From assembly GCA_947165975.1 (NCBI GenBank), contig CAMVCL010000011.1, positions 1 to 33,091 on the forward strand: a stretch of 33,091 nucleotides of DNA. Direction: 5' to 3'. Source of the DNA: an uncultured Candidatus Saccharibacteria bacterium (GTDB lineage Bacteria > Patescibacteriota > Saccharimonadia > Saccharimonadales > Saccharimonadaceae). A program made the position numbers and the translations under genes. Shown here in pieces: positions 28,763 to 29,819 of the stretch (its first letter is position 1; every line of letters begins with the position of its first letter). Below the pieces are notes generated by a model that saw only the letters and a program-made list of their open reading frames with translations, was not told the DNA's origin and searched no databases.

Positions 28763-28771
28763 ATTATACCA
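28763..28771 (-). promoter_or_regulatory. extended -10 promoter giving a leaderless rpfB-like mRNA
   Basis: The minus strand has TG-G-TATAAT, 6 bases before ATG 28756. It lies downstream of the terminator of the RNA unit at 28797-29006, so the gene can be transcribed without it. Confidence 0.65.
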
Positions 28772-28796
28772 CACTTACGTTTAAAAGTCTATCAAC

Positions 28797-28820
28797 AAAA
28801 ATCCACCCAGAAAGAGTGGA
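28797..28820 (-). terminator. intrinsic terminator of the structured RNA unit
   Basis: A 7-bp stem with one mismatch (TCCACCC / GAGTGGA, 5-base loop) is followed on the minus strand by TTTTT. Its 3' arm sequence (GGGTGGA in the RNA) recurs at 28887-28893. Confidence 0.75.
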
Positions 28821-29006
28821 CTTTAACCGAATAATTTCTAGGCGGATAAGGTTATACATTAACTTAGCCAAAATAGCTCTACACTCTCCACCCGAATGAA
28901 GACATCCGCCTTTACAATGTTTCATTCTAAAATGAGCTAACAAATCCCTAAAACCTGTGCTCTTTCAGTTCAGGCTCCTCTCAACGTCTGGACTCAGCCC
29001 GAACCT
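28797..29006 (-). ncRNA. candidate structured RNA or attenuator upstream of the rpfB-like gene
   Basis: This is the only gene-free stretch over 300 bases (28757-29198). A near-consensus promoter and a terminator delimit a transcript of about 210 bases with no convincing ORF. It can form a 9-bp hairpin GTTCGGGCT/AGCCTGAAC near the 5' end (28968-29004). It can also form AGGCGGAT/ATCCGCCT (28904-28911 with 28840-28847), crossed by TAGCTC/GAGCTA (28934-28939 with 28874-28879), which makes a pseudoknot. It lacks the signatures of SRP RNA, RNase P RNA, tmRNA and the main riboswitches I could recall. It may be free-standing or may control the muralidase operon. Confidence 0.6.
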
Positions 29007-29012
29007 AATTTT

Positions 29013-29040
29013 ATTTTAGCATAGGCTCATTTCGTGTCAA
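29013..29040 (-). promoter_or_regulatory. promoter of the structured RNA
   Basis: The minus strand has a perfect TTGACA (29035-29040), a 16-base spacer ending ATGC and TAAAAT (29013-29018). Transcription should start near 29006. Confidence 0.75.
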
Positions 29041-29130: not shown

Positions 29131-29191
29131 TTGACAATCACAAAATATATTTTTTATTATATTTAGAATATTATAATAGTTATGGTATAAT
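29131..29191 (+). promoter_or_regulatory. two promoters for the membrane protein-dsbA pair
   Basis: The distal promoter is TTGACA (29131-29136), an 18-base spacer and TATTAT (29155-29160). The proximal one is an extended -10 TG-G-TATAAT (29183-29191), 7 bases before ATG 29199, giving a leaderless mRNA. The distal one would give a leader of about 30 bases without a clear ribosome-binding site. Confidence 0.65.
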
Positions 29192-29198
29192 AGCCTAC

Positions 29199-29819
29199 AT
29201 GAATTGGAGGAAATGGCTCGACGAGTTTGTGCTCGCTACAAAAGGGATCATACTATCAACCAAAGAAAAACGTTTTTGGTACGGTTTTATTCCTAGTTTT
29301 ATTCTCTTTGGCATGTTAATGAATTTGCTTTCGGGTGGATTTACCAAATTCGAACTCATGGGCGCCATGGGTTTTCCAGCCAATCTTAAGATTCTTGGTA
29401 GCGCTTTTCTATCCATTTTTGGAATTAATCAGCCATTCCTAGATTGGCTCCCCATCTTTGCAATCTGCATTCTTCAAGGCACTCTCATTGGAATTATCGT
29501 CCTACTTTGGAATAAAAAACGTCAACAAGCCGACTCGTCTAATTCTGCCAATTTAGAAAAAGCTGGCATTATTACTGGTTTAATCGCTCTAGGTGCCGGC
29601 TGCCCAACCTGTGGCACAACCTTATTAACTCCACTTCTTGGTGCGATCTTTTCTACCGGTGGCTTAGCAATAACTGGCACAATTTCAACTATCGTCACAA
29701 TACTAGCGATAATCATCGCAATTTTATCTTTAAAACGTCTCGGCGAAGAATCCTATGTTATAATTATAAACGAAAAATATCTTGCTAAGAAGAAGGAGTC
29801 TCGTGAAAAAAGCACTTAG
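29199..29819 (+). CDS. multi-pass membrane protein with CPTC motif, partner of DsbA
   Basis: This 206-residue protein has about four to five hydrophobic segments (near residues 30-47, 62-78, 83-105, 122-147 and 150-178). A CPTC motif (C135, C138) lies at a glycine-rich bend of the fourth segment (GAGCPTCGTTLLTPLLG). A further cysteine is C90. The gene overlaps dsbA by 17 bases, so they are translated together. A redox CxxC in a membrane protein next to DsbA suggests an electron acceptor for DsbA, like DsbB or VKOR, but I recognise neither fold. Metal or thiol transport is an alternative. Confidence 0.7.
   Translation: MNWRKWLDEFVLATKGIILSTKEKRFWYGFIPSFILFGMLMNLLSGGFTKFELMGAMGFPANLKILGSAFLSIFGINQPFLDWLPIFAICILQGTLIGIIVLLWNKKRQQADSSNSANLEKAGIITGLIALGAGCPTCGTTLLTPLLGAIFSTGGLAITGTISTIVTILAIIIAILSLKRLGEESYVIIINEKYLAKKKESREKST

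Follow-up and report, generated by a model that had tools for sequence, protein, structure and literature searches.

The stretch of some 210 nucleotides that lies, bracketed by a promoter and a terminator, upstream of the rpfB-ksgA operon of an uncultured Candidatus Saccharibacteria bacterium raises the question of whether it is the leader of that operon or an RNA gene in its own right. We analyzed the whole 33,091-nucleotide stretch of DNA that carries it (the window) together with related genomes; the RNA is referred to here as RNA A. The TTGACA-N16-TAAAAT promoter and the U5 terminator given in a preliminary description of the locus are both present on the minus strand (Table 1), and the 5′ end of the transcript would be placed approximately 7 nt past the -10 box. 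Among the homologues compared, TTGACA...ATGCTAAAAT is near-invariant 5′ of the RNA, and a simple scan found a recognizable terminator within 60 nt of RNA A in 79 of 92. Because RNA A has a terminator of its own and rpfB a separate -10 box, the two belong to different transcription units, and RNA A is not, as originally proposed, the rpfB-ksgA leader. With TATAAT some 6 nt from the ATG, the rpfB mRNA is probably leaderless; this spacing recurs in many relatives. A 59-codon TTG-start open reading frame overlaps the 3′ half of RNA A; it was not read as a gene because insertions and deletions among the homologues are not limited to multiples of three. A second consensus promoter (TTGACA-N18-TATTAT; window 29131-29160, plus strand) diverges from RNA A and points to a membrane-protein gene starting at 29199.

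Table 1. Positions of the features discussed, in window coordinates unless stated otherwise
Feature	Coordinates	Strand	Basis
Promoter of RNA A, TTGACA-N16-TAAAAT; extended form TATGCTAAAAT	29013..29040	-	11/12 matches
RNA A, predicted stand-alone ncRNA, ~210 nt	28796..29007	-	Covariance model R1 match, without Rfam family
P1 hairpin, 5′ strand	28996..29005	-	7/10 pairs changed on both sides
P1 loop GUUGAGAG, near-invariant; GUUGAAAG in some species	28978..28985	-	Conserved columns
P1 hairpin, 3′ strand	28967..28976	-	Covariation, coordinates mapped
P2 5′ strand, source genome's form AGGCGGAU	28904..28911	-	Predicted fold
GGGUGG, alternative P2 5′ strand in relatives	28893-28888	-	Folds of relatives
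Conserved core of RNA A, GGGUGGAGAGUGUAGAGCUAUUUUGGCUAAG	28863..28893	-	28889-28863 complementary to RNA B
P2 3′ strand and conserved CCUAGAAAUU	28833..28847	-	Near-constant in homologues
Intrinsic terminator of RNA A, hairpin and U5	28796..28823	-	Sequence
Separate -10 box of rpfB, TATAAT, 6 nt 5′ of ATG (28756)	28763..28768	-	Relatives with similar TATAAT-ATG spacing
RNA B, undescribed predicted small RNA, ~115 nt	G000:C2:71543-71657 = L054:1560-1674 (outside window)	+	Promoter, covariation

A cis-acting riboswitch or attenuator of rpfB-ksgA, which had been suggested as a new sensor for muralidase control, would account for the position of RNA A, with its terminator, 5′ of rpfB in most genomes; the gene that follows encodes an RpfB-like protein in most homologues for which 3 kb of context was available, and a recognizable terminator before the gene is missing in a few species. 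In the window and most relatives, however, the RpfB-like gene has its own -10 box, usually TATAAT or a near match just 5′ of the ATG, and in other species RNA A precedes tRNA genes or unrelated genes. The separate -10 box, the variable next gene, and the frequent terminator argue against cis regulation, and the location within the 5′ UTR of a controlled gene, which such an element would have, was not found. Neither the ydaO-yuaA (c-di-AMP) model nor any other riboswitch model among the 4227 Rfam families matched RNA A. We regard this reading as already largely refuted and scarcely tenable.

As the preliminary description had anticipated, RNA A is undescribed: of the 4227 Rfam covariance models, none matched it at the gathering threshold and none convincingly at E ≤ 10. 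When the window, the surrounding region, the RNA B locus (see below), and the homologues were searched, just tRNA and tmRNA scored above threshold. The 6S RNA model (RF00013) had no match anywhere in the genome, and tmRNA and RNase P RNA are both located elsewhere in the source genome, so RNA A is neither of them. Homologues were first recovered by DNA search within the genus, and 18 of them were used to build covariance model R1, which matches the window at 28833-29009 (85 bits, E = 1.5e-18). Within the genus, R1 detects RNA A at 40 bits or more in 115 of 174 genomes; among 295 genomes sampled across the class, no match outside the genus exceeded 28 bits, and the weak matches that were checked there fell at the RNA B locus.

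The predicted fold of RNA A is more stable than those of shuffled sequences (z = -2.35). The claimed 9-bp 5′ hairpin was recovered as P1, a helix of 9–10 bp that covaries in the 18-homologue alignment, both partners having changed in 7 of its 10 pairs. No double-sided change was found for P2 in that alignment, where the P2 5′ strand is imperfectly aligned. Two crossing long-range pairings had also been described, and their fates differ: AGGCGGAT/ATCCGCCT (28911-28904 / 28847-28840) is the source genome's version of P2, whereas a counterpart of TAGCTC/GAGCTA (28939-28934 / 28879-28874) exists in just 1 of the 65 homologues that allowed comparison, namely the window itself. A conserved pseudoknot was rejected because none of the remaining 64 has this crossing pairing; its second arm is private to the source genome and falls within the RNA B-pairing segment. 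The undescribed, structured RNA of the preliminary description therefore stands, on the lack of an Rfam family, conservation across the genus, and covariation of P1, and its pseudoknot does not. At the level of sequence, RNA A can be taken as established to be a conserved structured RNA gene. Homologues range from approximately 75 to 210 nt or more, varying by insertions between P1 and P2; one of them (L352; G126:C1:113250-113900) carries an insertion of approximately 200 nt with extra hairpins at this position.

In a DNA search, the RNA A core (query 171-200) matches one further place per genome, the opposite strand of a second small RNA, RNA B. RNA B has its own conserved promoter (TTGACA-N17-TATAAT, aligned in 30 species). 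The predicted transcript comprises a 5′ hairpin, an unpaired segment (UAGCCAAAAUAACUCCACACUCUAC), and a 3′ hairpin whose UCCUCGCAGU loop is almost invariant; both helices show covariation. The loop and the unpaired AACUCCAC are CU-rich, and these single-stranded motifs (AACUCCAC, UCCUCGCAG) look like anti-Shine-Dalgarno seeds. An exact 25-mer occurs in 105 stretches from 85,000 species genomes; those listed are Saccharibacteria MAGs, one of them titled "uncultured bacterium," and all 80 listed matches (of the 105) that were checked are RNA B. RNA B is flanked on its other side by comM in 93 of the 105 stretches, and the tmRNA 5′ end is within 2.5 kb in 66. Within the genus, RNA B was found in 106 of 110 good genomes (blastn); in the class it was detected with model R2 in 166 of 295 genomes, all but one from the same family, and in 33 of 129 sampled genera. 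Outside the genus, the unpaired segment is reduced to about AAAACUCCAC. No plasmid-borne copy was found. The near-invariant loop and the family-wide spread suggest an important function.

The RNA A core is complementary to RNA B over approximately 25–40 nt. RNA A was fetched from 92 genomes and RNA B from 98, with both available in 83. In these 83 genomes, the local pairing score of matched pairs averaged 43.0; shuffled A gave 19.0 (sd 3.1, maximum 29.5), antisense A gave 14.6, and 89% of genomes exceeded the control maximum. The predicted duplex gain was likewise larger for matched pairs (mean -18.6 kcal/mol; -23.6 in the source genome) than for shuffled A (-8.7). When near-complements of the B segment (≤3 mismatches in 20) were collected from 36 genomes, RNA B itself and RNA A were recovered, with one extra match each in G007 and G042. 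An exact complement of the central part of the segment, GUGUGGAGU, occurs in 0 of 92 RNAs A, so the A-B duplex is always mismatched; one may speculate that the constant mismatches spare it from cleavage or keep it reversible. Full-length antisense homology between RNA A and the B locus was considered and is not claimed, as the alignments of the covariance-model hits that suggested it depend largely on the 25 nt in common. In approximately 10% of genomes (e.g., G017, G117, G092, and G094), both RNAs are kept and the complement in A is lost. G126, a 99% complete genome, has no detected RNA B, yet its RNA A retains the complement.

The complementarity is also specific to the genome. With a wider B window, matched A-B pairs averaged 46.1 versus 42.2 (sd 0.34) when B was permuted among genomes (z = 11.5; controls: reversed A, z = 0.7; antisense A, z = 0.2), a statistic that is indicative because related species are counted separately. 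The same reservation applies to the substitution test on core positions facing invariant bases of B, where changes that keep a G-U pair occur at 19.5% of eligible sites and pairing-breaking transitions at 8.5% (odds ratio 2.6, rising to 6.2, with the breaking class at 3.7%, when three standing mismatch columns are left out). Separate compensated changes weigh most. In G066, B CACTCT has become CATTCT with A GAGAGTG becoming GAGAATG, accompanied by a shortened run, and its RNA A scores 39 with its own B compared with 21 with others. An A/T run is shortened in both RNAs of G032; G139, G152, and G132 carry 2 extra nt at a corresponding site in the two RNAs, and G179 and G076 carry 1 extra nt in both. 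Both RNAs covary within their own helices as well. Co-evolution of the RNA A core with RNA B, through specific complementarity, is thus demonstrated as far as sequence comparison can do so.

The arrangement that we consider most probable is a two-RNA circuit in which RNA B is a family-wide regulatory RNA and RNA A its dedicated, trans-encoded antagonist, confined to one genus and co-evolving with it base by base. RNA A would fold into P1, with its GUUGAGAG loop, and a P2 domain presenting the core GGAGAGUGUAGAGYURUUUUGGCUAA, which would base-pair in trans with RNA B. RNA B, in turn, would be a regulator acting through its CU-rich unpaired motifs, and RNA A, by sequestering or destabilizing it, probably an antagonist or sponge. 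Joint expression, pairing in the cell, control of B by A, and binding of B to ribosome-binding sites are inferred components of this scheme. In the sister genus g32, RNA B and its unpaired segment are conserved, and a search there for an RNA A-like partner returned RNA B itself as the sole near-complement; together with the roughly one genome in ten lacking the complement, this implies that RNA B must have a role apart from RNA A and that RNA A joined it later as a partner.

Bacterial sponge RNAs, such as SroC for GcvB, the chbBC spacer for ChiX, and 3′ETS-leuZ for RyhB, are similar in that the partner is complementary to an unpaired segment of a small RNA and able to sequester it (PMC8383071). 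RNA A shows specific complementarity of this kind, with a pairing apparently kept by selection (subject to the relatedness of the species counted); the likeness describes a putative working mode. The reviewed sponges derive mostly from enterobacterial mRNA or tRNA transcripts (PMC8383071), whereas RNA A has a gene, promoter, and terminator of its own, is structured, and belongs to a Saccharibacterium with a reduced genome; its pairing is supported by co-variation over many species. Among Gram-positive small RNAs, RsaE and LhrC are CU-rich, and the G-rich part of RsaI binds the CU-rich tracts of other small RNAs (PMC8383071). RNA B, with unpaired CU-rich motifs in its linear segment and terminator-hairpin loop, resembles the former, and RNA A, as the G/purine-rich partner, the latter; however, neither shows a sequence relation to these RNAs in Rfam, and the A-B complementarity is far longer. 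Like tmRNA, RNase P RNA, and 6S RNA, both are stand-alone structured RNAs, and RNA B often adjoins tmRNA.

Other readings of the pair were considered. The direction of control could be reversed, with RNA A acting as the effector on a protein or another RNA through its GUUGAGAG loop and CCUAGAAAUU, and RNA B as an antisense brake. The P1 loop and the 3′ element are indeed the best-conserved parts of RNA A and are retained where the complement to B is lost, but RNA B is older and more widely distributed, RNA A being confined to one genus, and therefore RNA B cannot exist only to control RNA A; we consider this reading unlikely. The long, structured, co-evolving, and partly mismatched duplex, which leaves two conserved loops free, would also suit a joint two-RNA particle, for instance a bipartite guide or a protein scaffold, with both RNAs needed for one activity. 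Such a particle is rather improbable, given that no conserved protein gene is common to the two loci (A adjoins rpfB, tRNA, or other genes; B adjoins comM and tmRNA) and that RNA B occurs elsewhere in the family with no detectable RNA A.

It could also be argued that the shared 25-bp element is a regulator's DNA site or a product of gene conversion, with the complementarity of the transcripts incidental, since two loci share the element, oppositely oriented with respect to transcription, and both copies change together in some species. The element, however, lies well downstream of each promoter, within the predicted RNAs, and the changes in RNA A favor G-U-compatible transitions over those of the opposite type, a bias not predicted for a double-stranded site; the reading as a whole is very improbable.

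If the antagonist reading is correct, the pair would constitute a two-RNA control circuit in tiny parasitic candidate-phyla bacteria, of which no earlier report was found in the open-access literature; the same literature yielded no description of small RNAs acting in trans for either Saccharibacteria or the Candidate Phyla Radiation. The two RNAs add two new families with covariance models and provide dozens of natural, co-varied RNA-RNA pairs as material for studying the evolution of such interactions; they also open a way into gene regulation in bacteria with bacterial hosts.

Two observations concern the RNA A terminator. A 27-base near copy (93%) of its hairpin is located at G000:C24:5289-5315, 3′ of an unrelated gene. 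In several homologues (L007, L015, L017, and G094 [L267]), the terminator hairpin of RNA A and the 3′ hairpin of RNA B have a CCUCGCAG-type loop in common, which may represent a terminator loop typical of the genus, an uptake signal, or a shared ligand site.
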